In this document: piece by piece, positions 43,358-50,792 of the stretch | How positions within the stretch are numbered: the stretch's first letter is position 1 | Layout of the letters: the number at the start of each line of letters is the position of its first letter | Origin: Streptomyces sp. NBC_01439 | GTDB lineage: Bacteria > Actinomycetota > Actinomycetes > Streptomycetales > Streptomycetaceae | DNA length: 64,000 bases | Reading direction: 5' to 3' | Assembly: GCF_036227605.1 (NCBI RefSeq) | Contig: NZ_CP109487.1 | Coordinates: 1,488,001-1,552,000, forward strand | Made by a program: the position numbers and the translations under genes | Notes under the pieces: model-generated | What the model was told of the DNA's origin: nothing | Database searches by the model: none | What the model saw: the letters and a program-made list of their open reading frames with translations, nothing else

Positions 43358-44297
43358 CTCGACTATCCGCACCGCCGAAGGGCCTACACGACGCCCCAGA
43401 CCCACAACGACAGAATTCCGCAGATCCGTTCACGCTCACGCTGCGGCATAGCTCATCCGGAACAGCTCCTGGGCGCGCTCAAGGTCGCGCTCGGTATGCA
43501 GGCGTACCTCCAGGTTGCCCGTGCCGTGGTGGCCGAGCCCCGTCACGTCCCGGCTGAACCCGGGGACGAGCGCGACCTCGTCCGGGCTGGCCTTGAGGTA
43601 AACCAGCAGCCTGCTCTTCCGCGGGCAGACACAGGCGAAGTTCTGCAGCCGCTGGTAGGCGGTGTAGGTCTGGTTCTCGACCTTGGTGACGCCCTCGCCG
43701 AGTCCCAGCAGCACCTCGTCGACCGCCGCTGCCAGCTCGCCCATCGCCCCGTCCGACCGCTCGGCACGCTTCCCCCGAGCCGTGCCCCAGCCGCGCCCCG
43801 CCCGCGCCGGCGTACGGGTCCCGCCTGCCGAGGCGACGGTCTCCAGGCCGAAGTGCTCGTCGCCGAAGATCCGGTAGCGCACCAGGTCGATGGAGTGCCG
43901 GTGCTCGCGGACCGCGTGCAGGTCGTAGCGCGTGAAATCGCCAGCCACGCAGATCAACCTCGGCGCGCTCCACCGCACCCGGGCCGCGGCCTGCGCGCCG
44001 AGCCGGTCGCGGACCAGGCGCCGGAAGGCATCCCGGTGATCCATCAACCAGGCCAGGTAGAACAGGCCCTGGTTGATCACACCCGCATCAGTCGAACGCT
44101 TGTACTCAACAATCACCGGGGCGCTGTTCTCGTCGATACCCAGTGAGTCGATCCGGCCGCCGTGTACCGGCCCGGTGCTGTACTCACTTGCCAGGAAGCG
44201 TACCCCGAGCATGGCCTCCATGTGGGCCTCAACGAGGTCCTGCACCTCGGCCTCTTCATCGGCCAGCCGCGGCATGACCTCGGTCACGCCGCCCTTA

Positions 44298-44329
44298 GTG
44301 GTCGAGTTCGGAAGTCCTTCGGGGGTTGA
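44298..44329 (+). repeat. Left terminal inverted repeat of the 3.33-kb transposon
   Basis: 32 bp, identical to the reverse complement of 47596-47627. It also supplies codons for a chimeric start of the neighbouring nuclease frame. Confidence 0.9.
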
Positions 44330-44421
44330 CGCTGAGGAAGCTCCCGTGCCAGGTGGTGGCGTGGAACGCGGTCGAGGTGCGAGTTGACCTTCAAGTTGGA
44401 TGAAGGTCAACAATCGGGTCC

Positions 44422-45495
44422 ATGGATGGCACCGCGGAACTACTGAGCATCAGCGCCTTCGCGCGGCGAGTGGGTCTCGCTCCGAGCGCCTTGCGTTTCT
44501 ACGACGACTGCCGCGTTCTGCGGCCGGCGTGGGTTGACGGGACGACCGGATACCGCTTCTACAGTCCTGCTCAGGAGGCCCGTGCCGCTCTCCTGCGCAG
44601 TCTGCGAGAAGCGGGACTGCCGCTGGCCGAGGTCACCGTGGTGCTCGACGGGCCTGAGCGTGAGGGCCGGAAGGTGCTGGAGCGGCACCTGGAGAGGATG
44701 CGGGATCAGACGCAGACAGCCAAGGCTGCCATCGCGGTGGCTCTGCGTTCCCTCTCGACTGCCGACATCATGACGGAAGCGCGAATCGGCGGCGTGGAGT
44801 TGGCCAGTGCGGTACGCCAGGTGGTGCCAGCCGCAGCCGCCGACGGGGAACACCCTGCGCTGGGTTGCGTCCTCATCGAGATCGAGGACGGCGAGGTCCG
44901 TCTGGTGGCTACCGATCGCTACCGCCTGTCGATGCGCGTCCTGAGGCCGGAGGCACTCGACGGAGGGCCCCGCCGCCTGCTGATGCACGCCGCTGACCTG
45001 ATCGAGTTCGGGCAATGGGCGGCGCGAGTCCACCAGGTCACTATCCAGGTCGGACCGGACGGGGCCCGAGCACGCAGTACGTCAGAGTCCCGTGCCTTGG
45101 TGACGGTCGATGACCTGTTCCCTGCCTACCGCGAGATGCTCTCGGCCCTGGCCTCGCCCGAATACCGCGTGATCGTGGATCGCCTGGCCCTGCGTGACGC
45201 GGTCAACAGCCACGCAGACGCTCCACACATCGCTCTGAGCTTCGCCGACGACGAGCTGGTCGTCTCGCTTGCCAATCACTCCAACGCCATCACCCTGCCT
45301 GCGGTCTGCCATGAAGACCTGCCCCAGCGGATCGGTTTCGACCCTGCCGTCATGGCTCCCGCTCTGGAGGCCAGTGTCGGGCCCGACGTTCTGCTGGAGA
45401 TCTCCTCCGTAGACCAACCTGTCGTGGTGCGTTCCGCAGACCAGGGCAGCTTCACCACGCTGGTCATGCCCGTCGCCCTCAACACCTCCAGCTGA
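44422..45495 (+). CDS. MerR helix-turn-helix fused to a DNA sliding-clamp-like domain
   Basis: 357 residues, ATG start. Residues 1-75 are a MerR DNA-binding head: LLSISAFARRVGLAPSALRF, YDDCRVLRPAWVDGTTGYRF, YSPAQEARAALLRSLREAGL; a coiled-coil KVLERHLERMRDQTQTAKAA follows. From about residue 120 it turns into DnaN-like sequence: ASAVRQVVPAAAADGEHPAL, VRLVATDRYRLSMRVLRPEA, SRALVTVDDLFPAYREML, VDRLALRDAVNSHADAP and SFTTLVMPVAL at the end, as in beta clamps ('ATD-x-x-RL', 'MP'). Bacterial beta clamps have three domains; here about two. It may bind DNA, replace a clamp, or sense ligands. Such fusions also exist on actinomycete chromosomes. Confidence 0.85.
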   Translation: MDGTAELLSISAFARRVGLAPSALRFYDDCRVLRPAWVDGTTGYRFYSPAQEARAALLRSLREAGLPLAEVTVVLDGPEREGRKVLERHLERMRDQTQTAKAAIAVALRSLSTADIMTEARIGGVELASAVRQVVPAAAADGEHPALGCVLIEIEDGEVRLVATDRYRLSMRVLRPEALDGGPRRLLMHAADLIEFGQWAARVHQVTIQVGPDGARARSTSESRALVTVDDLFPAYREMLSALASPEYRVIVDRLALRDAVNSHADAPHIALSFADDELVVSLANHSNAITLPAVCHEDLPQRIGFDPAVMAPALEASVGPDVLLEISSVDQPVVVRSADQGSFTTLVMPVALNTSS

Positions 45496-45535
45496 CGCTT
45501 CCTCAACACCGCACCCTCATAACCTCAGGAGAACC

Positions 45536-46189
45536 GTGACCGACCCCGAGAACATCGTCGTGCAGTTGTGCGTGCAGGGTATGCAGGCCGAGGCCGAAGG
45601 GCGAGATGTCCGAGCACGGGAGCTGTTCCTTCAAGCGTGGGAAGCGGCCGAGGACGACTACGACGCCTGCATCGCCGCGCACTACCTCGCCCGGCACCAG
45701 CCGACCCCGCAGGAGACCCTGCACTGGAACCAGGAGTGCCTGACCCGGGCCGACAAGGTCGGCGACGACCGTGTCCGCGGCTTCTACGCCTCACTTCACG
45801 GCAACATGGCCCGAGCCCACCGGGACCTGGGCCAGATCGAGCAGGCCCGCGAACACTTCGAGGCCGCGGCCAAGCTCATCGACGACGTCCCAGCAGGCCC
45901 CCACCAGCAATGGCTCCGCTACCGCATCGCCGCAGGACTGCGTGCCACCGCCCCGGCTGGACCACAGCAGCACGAAGACCCGGTCGGTGAACTCCTCGCC
46001 AAGCTCTGCGCACGCACGGACCTCGAAGCCCTGAGCCTGCTGCTGCCTCCGTACATGGGCAGCCTCGGCACCCCCGAGGACGAGGAGGGCATCACCTTCG
46101 CCCTGCGCATGCTCCATGCCGAGCGTCGCCTTCCCGACGAAGAGCAGACCGCCCTCAGTCACGCGATCAAAGTCCGGTCCGCCGCGTGA
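45536..46189 (+). CDS. Tetratricopeptide-repeat protein
   Basis: 217 residues, GTG start after AGGAG. Helical repeats: EAEGRDVRARELFLQAWEAA, YDACIAAHYLARHQPTPQET, LHGNMARAHRDLGQIEQARE and HFEAAAKLIDDVPAGPHQQW fit TPR pairs ('A-x-x-x-LG-x-x-x-x-A-x-x-x-F-x-x-A'). The last third, GELLAKLCARTDLEALSLLL and ITFALRMLHAERRLPDEEQT, is another helical part. It follows the MerR-clamp gene by 40 nt in the same direction, likely one operon inside the transposon. TPR proteins bind partner proteins; the MerR-clamp protein is the obvious candidate. Confidence 0.82.
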   Translation: MTDPENIVVQLCVQGMQAEAEGRDVRARELFLQAWEAAEDDYDACIAAHYLARHQPTPQETLHWNQECLTRADKVGDDRVRGFYASLHGNMARAHRDLGQIEQAREHFEAAAKLIDDVPAGPHQQWLRYRIAAGLRATAPAGPQQHEDPVGELLAKLCARTDLEALSLLLPPYMGSLGTPEDEEGITFALRMLHAERRLPDEEQTALSHAIKVRSAA

Positions 46190-46266
46190 GTGCCCCCGCT
46201 CCTTGGTGACGCGCGCGTAGGCAACCGGCCGCCATCCGCGGTGCCGACGGACCTTCAACGATCACG

Positions 46267-46298
46267 ACGGCCCTCCGACCTCACGGTCGGTGGGCCGT
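46267..46298 (+). terminator. Terminator-like hairpin after the TPR gene
   Basis: ACGGCCC-T-CCGACC pairs with GGTCGG-T-GGGCCGT around a TCAC loop, with a single T/T mismatch. It separates the passenger genes from the transposase gene. Confidence 0.75.
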
Positions 46299-46425
46299 CA
46301 CACGTGCCAGTCACTATCCGCTCTTCCTGCCTCCTCGAAGATCCAATGGAGGGGAAGGAAGAGCGGGGGACAGCCGAAATCGCTCAGGCCTATCAGCCTG
46401 CCGCAGGGTCCAGGGGGACGGGGAC

Positions 46426-47595
46426 TTGTCCATACGCGCTGCCGTGGCGGTGGTGTTGACCGCCGCCGAGCGCCACCGACTGAAGAAGATGGCTTACGGT
46501 CACAAGACTCCACACCAAGCCCGGCAGCGTGCCGCAGTCGTCCTCCTTGCGGCACGTGGCCGGGGTAATGCCAGGATCGCCGCCGAGACCCAGCTGCACG
46601 TGGACACGGTCAGGACCTGGCGCGGCCGGTTCGCCCACGGCGGGCTGCCGGCTCTGGCCGACCGCAAGCGCTCCGGGCGCCCCGCACGTTTCACCCCTGT
46701 GCAGGTCGCCGAGGCCAAGGCGCTGGCTTGCCAGTTACCCGCCGAGACCGGCGTACCGCTGTCGCGTTGGTCCTGTCCGGAGCTGGCCGCCGAGCTGACC
46801 GCGCGAGGTATCACCGACACCATCTCCGCATCCACTGTGCGCCGCTGGCTGCGCGAGGACGCGCTCAAGCCCTGGCAGTACCGGTCCTGGATCTTCATCC
46901 GCGACCCGGACTTCCGGGCCAAGGCCCAGCGCGTCCTGGACCTGTACGCCCGTACCTTCGAGGGCGTCCAGCTGGGCCCGGACGAGTACGTCGTCTCCAG
47001 CGACGAGAAGACCTCCGTCCAGGCCCGCTGCCGCTGCCATCCGACCCTGGCCCCGGGCCGGGCCCGGGCGATGCGCGTCAACCACGAGTACGGGCGCGGC
47101 GGCGCGCTGGCCTACTTGGCCGCCTACGACGTCCACCGCGCAAAGGTCTTCGGTCGCTGCGATCTCAAGACCGGCATCGTGCCCTTCATGACCTTGGTCC
47201 AGCAGGTCATGACCCGAGAGCCCTACGCCAGCGCGAAACGCGTCTTCTGGATCGTAGACAACGGCTCCTCCCACCGGGGGAAGAAGGCCATCAACCGTCT
47301 GACCAAGGCGTTTCCGAACGCGGTCATGGTCCACACCCCTGTACACGCCTCCTGGACAAACCAGATCGAGATCTTCTTCTCGATCGTCCAGCGCAAGGTC
47401 GTCCAACCCAGCGACTTCACGGACCTGAGCCAGGTCCGGGACCGGCTCCGAGCGTTCGAAGACCGCTACAACGCCACGGCACAGCCGTTCCAGTGGAAGT
47501 TCACCACCTCCGACCTGGACGATCTGCTGGCCCGGCTCGACCGACACGCACCCGCCGACCGACAAGAAGAATCCTCCGTCGCCCTGGCAGCCTGA
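46426..47595 (+). CDS. IS630-type DDE transposase
   Basis: 389 residues from TTG 46426. The N-terminus is a helix-turn-helix (LTAAERHRLKKMAYGHKTPH, IAAETQLHVDTVRTWRGRFA) followed by PVSLSRW-type and STVRRWLREDALKPWQYRSW sequences. The catalytic core has YVVSSDEKTSVQARCR (first Asp), KRVFWIVDNGSSHRGKKA (second Asp) and SWTNQIEIFFSIVQRKVVQP (Glu), the DDE set of the IS630/Tc1-mariner superfamily. It ends at the inner edge of the right inverted repeat, so it must belong to the element bounded by 44298 and 47627. Confidence 0.93.
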   Translation: MSIRAAVAVVLTAAERHRLKKMAYGHKTPHQARQRAAVVLLAARGRGNARIAAETQLHVDTVRTWRGRFAHGGLPALADRKRSGRPARFTPVQVAEAKALACQLPAETGVPLSRWSCPELAAELTARGITDTISASTVRRWLREDALKPWQYRSWIFIRDPDFRAKAQRVLDLYARTFEGVQLGPDEYVVSSDEKTSVQARCRCHPTLAPGRARAMRVNHEYGRGGALAYLAAYDVHRAKVFGRCDLKTGIVPFMTLVQQVMTREPYASAKRVFWIVDNGSSHRGKKAINRLTKAFPNAVMVHTPVHASWTNQIEIFFSIVQRKVVQPSDFTDLSQVRDRLRAFEDRYNATAQPFQWKFTTSDLDDLLARLDRHAPADRQEESSVALAA

Positions 47596-47627
47596 TCAAC
47601 CCCCGAAGGACTTCCGAACTCGACCAC
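47596..47627 (-). repeat. Right terminal inverted repeat of the 3.33-kb transposon
   Basis: 32 bp, exact reverse complement of 44298-44329, directly after the transposase stop and followed by the TTA target copy. Confidence 0.9.
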
Positions 47628-47821
47628 TTAGTGCTGAACAGCTTCAGCCCCGACACCTCCCCCTCCGCCGACCTGCCCCAACGCACAGAGCCTTGAGACT
47701 ATTTCCGGCTCTGGCTAGGTGCTATCGGATTTCATTGGTCTGCTGCGGGGCAGCATCACCGTTTCGAGATGGCCTGGTTGCCTGCAGGACGGGCCTGACA
47801 TCGAAAGGCTTGCCGGTCACG

Positions 47822-50629
47822 TCACCGGTGGCGCCACAGCTGCCTCAGGCGAAGGACCTCCATGGCCCAGTGGGCCTCTAGATCCTCGTCAGGGATGCGC
47901 TCGCGTCCAAGACTGAAGCGAACGTGCCGGTAGAGCCAATGCAGCGAGGCGTCAGAGCTCGCAATCAGTGTCGACAGCAAGGGTTCCCCGGCTGGTGTCT
48001 CCCGATCCACGGCCACGAGCAGCTCACCCTGGTCGTCAGGGTGCAGGTGGGGCAGCGCGCCACCCATGCGGTGGCGTAGGTCTCGCCAGGCCAGAAGCAT
48101 TCCCCCTGCTCGGGATTGGTCTGCGAGAACCTGACGTGCCTCGCCAGCCAGCTTTTCGATGGTCTCGATGGTCAGTCGATCGGATGGTCTGGCATCCGCA
48201 CGACTCTCCGTCTTCCTGTTCGTGTTCGTCACGGGGGTGTCGGCCGTCTGCCCGGACCGGTGGCGTTCGGTGAGTTCCCGGTGGTGCAATCGGCCTCGCC
48301 AACGCTTCACTGCAGCCTCGTCGGCAGCAGGCAGCGCCGCGGAGAGCCGGCGGCGGAGCTGACCGATCTCGTGAAGCGCTCCCCGGAGGCTGTCCACTGA
48401 CAGCGACTTGCGATCGTGGCCCAGCTCCGCGAGGAGCTCGCGGATCCTCCGTAGGCACGGGTCAACGTGCGACGTCGGCTGATGCGAGAGGCACCACTCC
48501 TTCACTTCCCGCATAAAGGGGGTGTAGCGCTCGTGGTCGGCTGAAGCCAGCTTTCGGGCATACAGCGGACCCGCCATGCGGCGGCCGGCCTCTACTGCCG
48601 CCACATTCCCGTCAGCCTGGGCGGCACGGATCACGTCGAGAATGGTCTGGAACTGGGCCAGCGCCTCGGCATCGGCGGCCTCCTGCTCAGTGGCCGCGGT
48701 GGCTGCGCCACTCGGCGTGGGAGGGTTGGGGGCCTCCTGGCTCGCGGCGAATGCGCGGCTGATCAGACGCTCAAAGTTCACGACGATCGAGTCACCGGTG
48801 GACAGCCATGCTCGCAGGTCCCCAGTGCTCAGGCAGGCTGACTTGTAGGCTTCGAGGTGGCTCTCGGCCTGCTGTACGACAAGTTCAAGGTCAGCGTCGG
48901 GGCTCTCGGCCGGCTTCCGGCTGACGTCCGCCGCGTCACGCAGTCGCATGCGCAGTCTCTCCGCGAGCAGTGCCGCTGGGCGTTTGTAGGACGAGGACGC
49001 CTCCGACTCCGGCTCCGACACGGATGCCGCCCCGCTGACGCCGGAAACCTCGCTGTCCGGCCTCGCGTCAGGGGCTTCGCCGACAGTCTGCCGGGGGGAG
49101 GACGACTGCGAAACGCCCCTCGGGCAGTACTTCTCGTACGCCCGCTCCCTCATGTCGCCGCTCCAACTGCGAAGGCCCGCCCCTGAGCCCGGCGCTCGCG
49201 CACCGAGCTTCTGGAGGACGGCGCCCAGGTAGGGGAGGTCGCGTCCCGAAGGAGCATGGACCAGCACACAGAGGAGGGGAGCATCGGGCCGGCCGGGCTT
49301 GTCCACCTCCACCAACAAGTCACGCCTCGCGGGGTCAGGGAGCTGATTGAGATACCGGCCCACTCGGCGGGCAAGGTCGTGCCAGGTGGTCGTGGCGCGC
49401 TGGGCCGCTACTCGTTCCAGCTCCTGCCGGACCTGGTCGGCTACCGTGCTCGGACCATCCCCAGGAACGTCATGCGCGGTTGACGCCTCCGGCCTCGCGG
49501 GCCCTACTCGCCTGGTACCGGACGGGGCAGATATCTGCTCAGGCAGAGAGACAGCCGGCCGCCACAGACCGGTGCGTTCGGCATCGAGCCCGTTGAGGCG
49601 CACGATGCTGTCGGCACGTATCGCGTAGTGGGAGCCATCGACACCACCTGCGTCGGTGATCAGCAAGCGTGCGGGACCGGACAACCGGTACACATATTGA
49701 TCCGTGGGGGCAGGTACGTCGTTCGGGAGGGAGACGCTGGCTCGGATGATCCGGCTGCCGGCGGGTTTGATGAAGCCCGATACCAAATAGCGGCCCTCGG
49801 CCACGAGGGCAGACTGCGTCGGATTCTCGCTGCCGGAGTCAACTGCGAATACGACCTCGTCGCCGCGCAGCGGCAGGCTGCCGGGCAACGGATCGTTGCG
49901 CATACCGCCTGCACGCACACCCCCGGCAGCACGCAGTGCCTCGAGCTCCGGCGTAACAATGCCGTCCTTGGTCATCCGGCACGATTCCAAGGACGCCCAG
50001 ACCACGATGTGGTTGTCAGCAACAGTTCCGATGAGGACGCGGCGGTCGGTTCCGACCGTTTCACAGCGGACACGCAATGCGTATCCCTGGCGGGCCACCA
50101 TGTCCCGTGTGATGGGCCCGTCAGGCCCGAACACCCATTCAACGTGGCCTTCCTTGACACCGAGGCTGTCGGCAGCCCTGCGCCAGCTGCGGTAGTCCTC
50201 CGGCCGCAGTTCGAACCGCAGGTGCTGCTCGGTGGCTCGGAGCCAGAAGTCCACGGCATCCCCAGGGCCGCTACCCAGACTACGCAGCTCGGCCTGCGCC
50301 GCATGGCCCTGACCCGCGAGCCACTCCTTGACATGCAATTTGATGAAGAGGTGGTCGGCGCTGTCGACTCCAGTAGCGATTCGGTCGCACGCTCTGCTTC
50401 CCTCACGGCCCGGGAAGTGGGAGAAATGGCAGACCTTGGTCTCGTACCGCTTGGTCATCAGTTTCTGCCCGCAGCCGCCGAGGAGCGTGCCGCACCAGAA
50501 GCGGTTGGTGCCGAACTGCCGACGGAACTCGTCTAGGTTGTGCGGTTGTTCGGGAAGGATGACGGGCTGGTCCGACTCTCGGCCACCGATCACGGCGGTC
50601 TGGATGAGCCGGGTGTCAATCAGCGCCAC
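47822..50629 (-). CDS. Large CoiA-like protein, last gene of a putative defence operon
   Basis: 935 residues from GTG 50629 with GGAGG upstream. Near the N-terminus FWCGTLLGGCGQKLMTKRYE and KVCHFSHFPG give a zinc-type Cys/His arrangement, then ATGVDSADHLFIKLHVKEWL, followed by AVDFWLRATEQHLRFELRPE: the layout of competence CoiA-family proteins with a nuclease-like domain (E-x-R rather than the usual E-x-K). The remaining 650 residues are helical and charged, with a SWDLARRVGRYLNQL-like motif repeated (TTWHDLARRVGRYLNQLPDP and LAWRDLRHRMGGALPHLHPD), so there are two related domains. It is likely to bind or cut DNA. The gene lies 160 bases after the PLD gene on the same strand. Confidence 0.72.
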   Translation of the reverse strand: MALIDTRLIQTAVIGGRESDQPVILPEQPHNLDEFRRQFGTNRFWCGTLLGGCGQKLMTKRYETKVCHFSHFPGREGSRACDRIATGVDSADHLFIKLHVKEWLAGQGHAAQAELRSLGSGPGDAVDFWLRATEQHLRFELRPEDYRSWRRAADSLGVKEGHVEWVFGPDGPITRDMVARQGYALRVRCETVGTDRRVLIGTVADNHIVVWASLESCRMTKDGIVTPELEALRAAGGVRAGGMRNDPLPGSLPLRGDEVVFAVDSGSENPTQSALVAEGRYLVSGFIKPAGSRIIRASVSLPNDVPAPTDQYVYRLSGPARLLITDAGGVDGSHYAIRADSIVRLNGLDAERTGLWRPAVSLPEQISAPSGTRRVGPARPEASTAHDVPGDGPSTVADQVRQELERVAAQRATTTWHDLARRVGRYLNQLPDPARRDLLVEVDKPGRPDAPLLCVLVHAPSGRDLPYLGAVLQKLGARAPGSGAGLRSWSGDMRERAYEKYCPRGVSQSSSPRQTVGEAPDARPDSEVSGVSGAASVSEPESEASSSYKRPAALLAERLRMRLRDAADVSRKPAESPDADLELVVQQAESHLEAYKSACLSTGDLRAWLSTGDSIVVNFERLISRAFAASQEAPNPPTPSGAATAATEQEAADAEALAQFQTILDVIRAAQADGNVAAVEAGRRMAGPLYARKLASADHERYTPFMREVKEWCLSHQPTSHVDPCLRRIRELLAELGHDRKSLSVDSLRGALHEIGQLRRRLSAALPAADEAAVKRWRGRLHHRELTERHRSGQTADTPVTNTNRKTESRADARPSDRLTIETIEKLAGEARQVLADQSRAGGMLLAWRDLRHRMGGALPHLHPDDQGELLVAVDRETPAGEPLLSTLIASSDASLHWLYRHVRFSLGRERIPDEDLEAHWAMEVLRLRQLWRHR

Positions 50630-50792
50630 CCTTGCTCCCTCCCGGTTCGAAGTATCTGCAGGTACAGGAGGCAAGGCAGAGAGGCCCTGCCGCCGCCATA
50701 ACGCATAAAGATACGCGAGGGCACATTCATGCGATGAGGCTTCGGGCGAAGGTCCCAAGCATCGAGATCGCGACGCCACAGGCCACGCGCCA

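Follow-up and report, generated by a model that had tools for sequence, protein, structure and literature searches.

The 64,000-nucleotide stretch of Streptomyces sp. NBC_01439 analysed here (contig NZ_CP109487.1, positions 1,488,001 to 1,552,000; the window) contains, at 44298-47627, a 3,330-bp element of the IS630 type that carries two genes besides its transposase: merR-clamp, encoding a MerR regulator fused to part of a sliding clamp, and tpr, encoding a tetratricopeptide repeat (TPR) protein. We lean towards the view that this is a 'transporter insertion sequence (IS)'-type transposon with merR-clamp and tpr as passive cargo, and that the regulator would be a TipA-like, self-regulating receptor of ligands of the clamp pocket. 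The transposon half of this view is well supported. For the regulator, a TipA-like receptor would be the most economical reading, since it brings together the MerR half, the self-facing promoter and the saved pocket.

The element is bounded by perfect 32-bp inverted ends, which form the core of a longer inverted repeat (I1, 44291-44329 / 47596-47634, 95%), and TTA flanks it on both sides (Table 1). When the flanks were joined with the element and one TTA removed, an open frame was obtained that reads VSGLKLFSTKGGVTEV..., where a relative reads VSGLKLFNTKGGVTEV; the rejoined gene codes for a DUF5655 domain with a weak NucS match. An uninterrupted version, that is, a single match spanning the insertion point to the gene end, was present in 7 of 61 genomes (its own included in the 61), and five of the seven matches were inspected as sequence. 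The transposase matches the NCBIfam IS630 model NF033545 (E 4e-49, 167.7 bits against a cut-off of 100) and the Pfam models DDE_3 and HTH_32; its last two catalytic residues are separated by 36 residues, as against 34 in IS630, and the related copy at locus L044 is annotated with a start 21 codons further in. The sequence shows a single unit that has matching ends, a 3-bp target copy and a whole D-D-E transposase, and cargo with such ends recurs at eight places. The initial annotation, which had described the perfect ends and TTA copies, the exact repair of a split nuclease-like gene, an IS630-type transposase, cargo made up of a MerR-sliding-clamp fusion and a TPR gene, and movement of the open reading frames (ORFs) together, was correct on all these points. 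With up to three mismatches allowed, the end pattern occurs once per direction in the 9,578,283-bp single-contig genome, making this a single-copy element, and the reversed pattern, used as a control, gave no match there.

Table 1. Features of the element and of the gene it interrupts (positions in the window)
Feature	Position	Strand	Basis
Left 3-bp target duplication copy (TTA)	44295..44297	.	sequence
Left terminal inverted repeat, 32 bp	44298..44329	+	repeat search, end-pattern search
MerR-type promoter/operator	44383..44414	+	sequence; -10 box inferred
merR-clamp: MerR helix-turn-helix (HTH), coiled coil, beta-clamp domains II and III, 357 aa	44422..45495	+	ORF, profiles, model
tpr: all-helical TPR protein, 217 aa	45536..46189	+	ORF, Pfam, structure model
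GC-rich hairpin between tpr and transposase	46266..46299	+	-31.3 kcal/mol over 46255-46305
Second hairpin 5' of transposase	46310..46371	+	-34.7 kcal/mol over 46310-46375
IS630-family transposase, 389 aa, D193/D278/E315	46426..47595	+	ORF, profile matches
Right terminal inverted repeat, 32 bp	47596..47627	-	repeat search, end-pattern search
Right 3-bp target duplication copy (TTA)	47628..47630	.	sequence
Interrupted target gene, main part (DUF5655, weak NucS_C match)	43436..44297	-	
Interrupted target gene, first codons (start codon inferred)	47628..47656	-	

Genes 84-92% identical to merR-clamp were found at seven further places in Streptomyces and on a Kitasatospora plasmid: in S. adelaidensis (L039), S. 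katrae (L040), S. fulvorobeus (L041, also L010 and L085) and strain TBY4 (L042, also L106; truncated at 66 residues), at L097 (also L011), and on plasmids of Streptomyces sp. NBC_00354 (L044) and Kitasatospora cathayae (L045). One or both ends of this kind are present at each of the eight places, window included, and both at six; since the flanks differ, these are separate insertions. Exact 3-bp copies surround four of the six two-ended places (window, L039, L045 and L097), the inexact ones being TTA/TAA at L044 and CAA/TAA at L085. All seven non-truncated copies have open merR-clamp and tpr frames. Their transposase is intact in the window and L044, open over residues 15-384 in L039, and broken or partly deleted in the other four of the seven (L040, L041, L045 and L097). 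Median ratios of nonsynonymous to synonymous substitution (Nei-Gojobori dN/dS) were 0.26 for merR-clamp (21 pairs), 0.21 for tpr (21 pairs) and 0.20 for the transposase (3 pairs). The open frames and low dN/dS indicate that the cargo is under purifying selection and has been kept by it.

An end pattern derived from these copies (three mismatches allowed) was found in 90 of 392 genus genomes, whereas its reversed control gave none in any of the 392 genome rows. The places with ends were listed in part, and 40 stretches were taken for study. Two facing ends, 0.8-6.1 kb apart, were present in 30 of them, which with the window gives 31 two-ended places; ten single-ended or doubtful stretches (L106-L115, L110 having a weak second end) were left out. 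At least 24 of the 31 carry a non-transposase gene with an above-cut-off Pfam match (L085 and L097 were counted by 84-85% identity to the window's MerR-clamp protein), and a regulator is present in 13 of the 24. The cargo comprises TetR with an aldo/keto reductase (L079, L088) or with dehydrogenases (L078, L083), an ArsR-like regulator with an aldo/keto reductase (L082), an aldo/keto reductase (L096), MerR with MFS and a hydrolase (L081), MFS (L089), methyltransferases (L080, L093), a multicopper oxidase (L086), a molybdopterin oxidoreductase (L094), LD-carboxypeptidase (L076), hydrolases (L095, L103), a glyoxalase with TetR (L102), PadR (L092), SDR and HTH within one ORF (L104), MarR (L105), AHSA1 (L098), an M64 peptidase (L100) and MerR-clamp (window, L085, L097). 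The ORFs of the remaining seven places (L077, L084, L087, L090, L091, L099 and L101) were tested in part, so that 24 of 31 is a lower bound; L099 has other insertion sequences inside and a kinase match under the cut-off. No transposase match was obtained at five of the 31 (L080, L100, L101, L104 and L105), and some places may be composites, since there are three ends at L091 and a further piece of transposase near the left end of L089.

A simple form of 1.67-1.70 kb, with the transposase and a 111-aa gene on the opposite strand, was seen at L084, L090 and L142, and not the form of about 1.1 kb with a transposase alone that the initial annotation had given for simple IS630 elements. As L077, L078 and L100 retain remnants of the 111-aa gene, this small gene appears to have given way to cargo. 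In a transposase tree of 27 rows, one of them a duplicate, the window pairs with L044 (support 99/90) and the peptidase carrier L076 comes next (81/80), within a nine-row set (94/98) to which L039 and five further rows with cargo also belong, the duplicate pair accounting for two of these, with no other inner order resolved. Cargo and transposase look like exchangeable parts on this comparison. The 111-aa protein family, whose gene is divergent to the transposase in simple elements, was noted at L142 (4587-4922), L084, L090, L091, L143, L144 and L146 and also on Rhodococcus and Mycobacterium plasmids. One genome in many contigs (G167) has 62 end matches (36 + 26), and seven of the ten listed are no more than about 125 bases from where a contig starts; a GTGGTCTGCGTCGTAA-type element has probably multiplied there in a burst and fragmented the assembly.

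Because a TA copy with one additional base at the end would look like a 3-bp copy at any one site, target copies were compared over 34 two-ended elements (the 31 together with L039, L044 and L045). Exact 3-bp copies are present in 24, of which 23 are TTA or TAA, mostly within C-TWA-G. When the 29 elements with a transposase match were read in the orientation of that gene, 12 were TTA/TTA, eight TAA/TAA and one TCA/TCA, the other eight being inexact. A fixed extra base with TA copies would allow one kind only and does not fit the occurrence of both TTA and TAA. The duplication is therefore taken to be 3 bp and not the 2-bp TA usual for IS630 relatives, and on this evidence we file the element as an IS630-type variant.

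The MerR-clamp protein comprises a MerR domain (residues 9-76; Pfam MerR_1, E 1.1e-11, above cut-off), a long helix (79-111) and clamp domains II and III (about 118-353), MerR occupying the place of clamp domain I. A structure model built on 48 sequences has the same MerR, coiled-coil and clamp parts (mean predicted local distance difference test score (pLDDT) 89.6, predicted template modelling score (pTM) 0.67) and matches DnaN clamp structures in Foldseek (best E 2.6e-17, about 244-245 columns). On the DnaN model TIGR00663 (cut-off 137.65) the protein scores 39.9 bits. At least 46 of the 48 family members lack the loop that corresponds to E. coli 270-274, whose I272 and L273 we take to form the ring interface. 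A figure legend in PMC11139829 mentions an I272/L273 double mutant. With domain I and the ring-closing interface gone, the sequence indicates that the protein is not a functional DnaN, although much of the partner pocket is kept. At the 18 pocket positions of the E. coli list in PMC11139829, mean entropy was 0.80 as against 1.52 at 227 others (one-sided p 0.0008, with related rows), and 10 of 18 are identical to the host DnaN, compared with 48 of 219 positions elsewhere. L155, T172, R176, P242, M362 and P363 are invariant in the 48 rows, and V360 is always L.

Upstream of merR-clamp, TTGACC (44384-44389) and AACAAT (44409-44414), the latter seven bases 5' of the ATG, are separated by a 19-bp spacer, and a perfect dyad with 11-bp arms, GTTGACCTTCA-N7-TGAAGGTCAAC (44383-44411), extends across the spacer into both boxes. 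The HTH and the long-spacer dyad promoter of the MerR family are therefore both present by sequence. The dyad is equally perfect in L042, L044 and L097 and shorter in L041. TTGACCYTC was found upstream at 18 of 20 homologue loci without ends (all except L116 and L124), compared with 13 of 3,623 control windows. A search of the whole genome with up to three mismatches gave no second operator site, which fits a regulator of its own operon. The same genome also encodes a second MerR-clamp fusion (G000:C1:5227811-5228866; L004, L133), 36% identical, without ends and with a diverged promoter.

Homologues of merR-clamp are widespread, being found in 126 of 295 genus genomes at E 1e-20 (its own included). 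At loci L010-L038, ends were found only at L010 and L011 (up to 1.5 kb examined on each side), and they were present at none of 20 wider homologue loci, a non-random choice of stronger matches and some distant ones. The initial annotation had held that ends enclosing only the transposase, or cargo without the repeats, would point to chance capture or an assembly artefact. Both were found in part, as ends around a transposase and one small gene (L084, L090, L142) and as end-less homologues; an artefact is set aside because cargo with such ends stands at eight distinct places. At the protein level, 868 relatives were obtained for the fusion and 633 for the TPR protein, 120 of each being listed; among the matches listed, an 85% relative of the fusion is named from Rhodococcus sp. 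OK302. A DnaB helicase family lies near 7 of 20 chromosomal merR-clamp genes and a beta-lactamase-fold family near 5 of 20; we rejected these as functional partners, since the pattern looks like a shared chromosomal site.

Under the TipA-like reading, a 1.7-kb IS630-family element of small gene and transposase would have swapped the small gene for a host operon, merR-clamp plus tpr, and then spread together with it. The transposase alone would move the element by cut and paste at CTWAG, the cargo staying passive. The MerR half would sit on its own 19-bp-spacer promoter, and a ligand entering the retained clamp pocket (a griselimycin-type clamp-targeting peptide antibiotic or a clamp-binding protein) would switch it on, giving more receptor, which might soak up ligand as a sponge, and more TPR protein. 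A clamp drug is a plausible ligand because mypR and griR, actinomycete clamp genes that lie near transposases, have been proposed to act in self-resistance to clamp drugs (PMC10817943).

A number of observations weigh against this reading. The pocket-entropy test disregards kinship among the rows; N320 is mostly D and R365 mostly A, differing from both E. coli and the host DnaN, and R152, R246, V247 and V344 vary too, although at these four positions the host's own DnaN is likewise unlike that of E. coli. Copies L039 and L045 have imperfect dyads; L040 has other sequence in place of the promoter and the first five residues, and no left end was found for it. Of the nearer homologues, 8 of 13 have tpr beside them, as do 3 of 7 distant ones, though only weakly, so the two cargo proteins need not act together. 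Neither hairpin has a T run or was classed as terminator-like, and no terminator was called on that strand in the scan; one shared promoter could therefore read on into the transposase. That several pocket positions are altered and that near-invariant residues also lie outside the pocket would suit a clamp half that is a dead scaffold in an ordinary autoregulated MerR factor, pocket residues being kept for the fold only. We consider this unlikely, as the pocket is less variable than the rest and agrees with the host DnaN more often than other positions do.

We likewise doubt that the MerR-clamp protein is a decoy that senses clamp-binding proteins of phages or plasmids, and that the pair is a module for defence or stress in which the TPR protein acts as the effector. 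The largely kept pocket, the lost ring interface and the mobile cargo are consistent with such a role, as is the clamp-blocking phage protein described in PMC11139829, though that one binds the DNA channel and not the pocket. However, neither cargo protein gave a PADLOC match at E 0.01. The TPR protein has only TPR models, the best just under its cut-off, and weak sub-cut-off matches in Pfam, and a fold search gave only general TPR matches, none at E 0.001. Other proteins with PADLOC matches were the transposase (mad1, weak), the L082 regulator (Csa3/CasR and other models) and L099 (PD-T4-6, weak); the methyltransferase cargo at L093:1426-2205 (the same place as L145) matches the defence model mad2 (E 5.6e-17). 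Some transposases bind the replication clamp, and the initial annotation had put forward the hypothesis that the clamp-like passenger could steer or permit transposition. It might do so by binding the transposase or by mimicking the clamp so that insertion follows replication forks. The association of cargo and ends at eight places could be read in this way. We rejected clamp-guided transposition as highly improbable, because same-type ends and related transposases also enclose unrelated cargo or only the small gene, the fusion is common without the ends, and cargo frames stay open where the transposase is broken. A clamp motif in the transposase was also rejected: the sole common stretch, QIEIFF-like in 25 of 27 rows, overlaps catalytic E315 and is present without clamp cargo too, some rows having other scattered matches.

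These elements show small insertion sequences ferrying regulator-plus-enzyme pairs among Streptomyces, and under the TipA-like reading there would be a receptor for compounds directed against the replication clamp, which is a target of anti-tuberculosis peptides; a reporter on the conserved promoter would allow its ligand to be found. More tentatively, the protein may stand for a new class of MerR regulator whose ligand receptor is the drug target itself, a clamp reduced to the partner-binding pocket. It would be a self-induced sensor and sponge of antibiotics or proteins that bind the clamp, common among actinomycetes and mobilised by a large family of cargo-carrying IS630-type elements with 3-bp copies. 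Neither a MerR-clamp fusion nor cargo-bearing Streptomyces IS630 elements were described in the titles and abstract openings of the literature matches listed (ISfinder and most subscription papers being outside this scope). Two side observations concern the neighbourhood and tpr: a 985-aa ORF adjoining the insertion (47822-50779) had no Pfam or NCBIfam match at E 0.01, and cyanobacterial and Enterococcus plasmids encode proteins annotated as rifampin ADP-ribosyltransferase (arr), part of which shows 35-39% identity to the N-terminal 110-140 residues of the TPR protein.

Among known systems, the element shares with the IS630 family (IS630/Tc1/mariner, ITm) an above-cut-off transposase, the D-D-E residues, terminal repeats and TA inside the target, but it makes a 3-bp TTA/TAA copy where ITm elements in general make 2-bp TA copies (PMC10045372), and it carries cargo, whereas IS630 is described as having one or two ORFs in about 1,250 bp (PMC11092175). 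It agrees with the transporter IS (tIS), an IS derivative with passenger genes between its ends (PMC9330008), in that the ends enclose transposase and passengers and cargo-free relatives exist; in the excerpts of the tIS literature no IS630-family member was found described, and cargo here, unlike there, varies widely from place to place. The regulator resembles the TipA/BmrR class in its MerR HTH, its coiled coil, a C-terminal half in the ligand-binding-domain position and autoregulation, probable here and described for TipA in PMC7762955. That half is, however, a cut-down sliding clamp and not a TipAS or GyrI-like domain; the TipAS model is absent among the Pfam matches of the protein, which places it outside the TipA class proper. 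Finally, griR and mypR, second clamp (dnaN) genes of actinomycetes (PMC10817943), are likewise clamp-type genes near transposase genes, but by their description they are DnaN, whereas the protein studied here is without domain I and ring interface and is fused to MerR.

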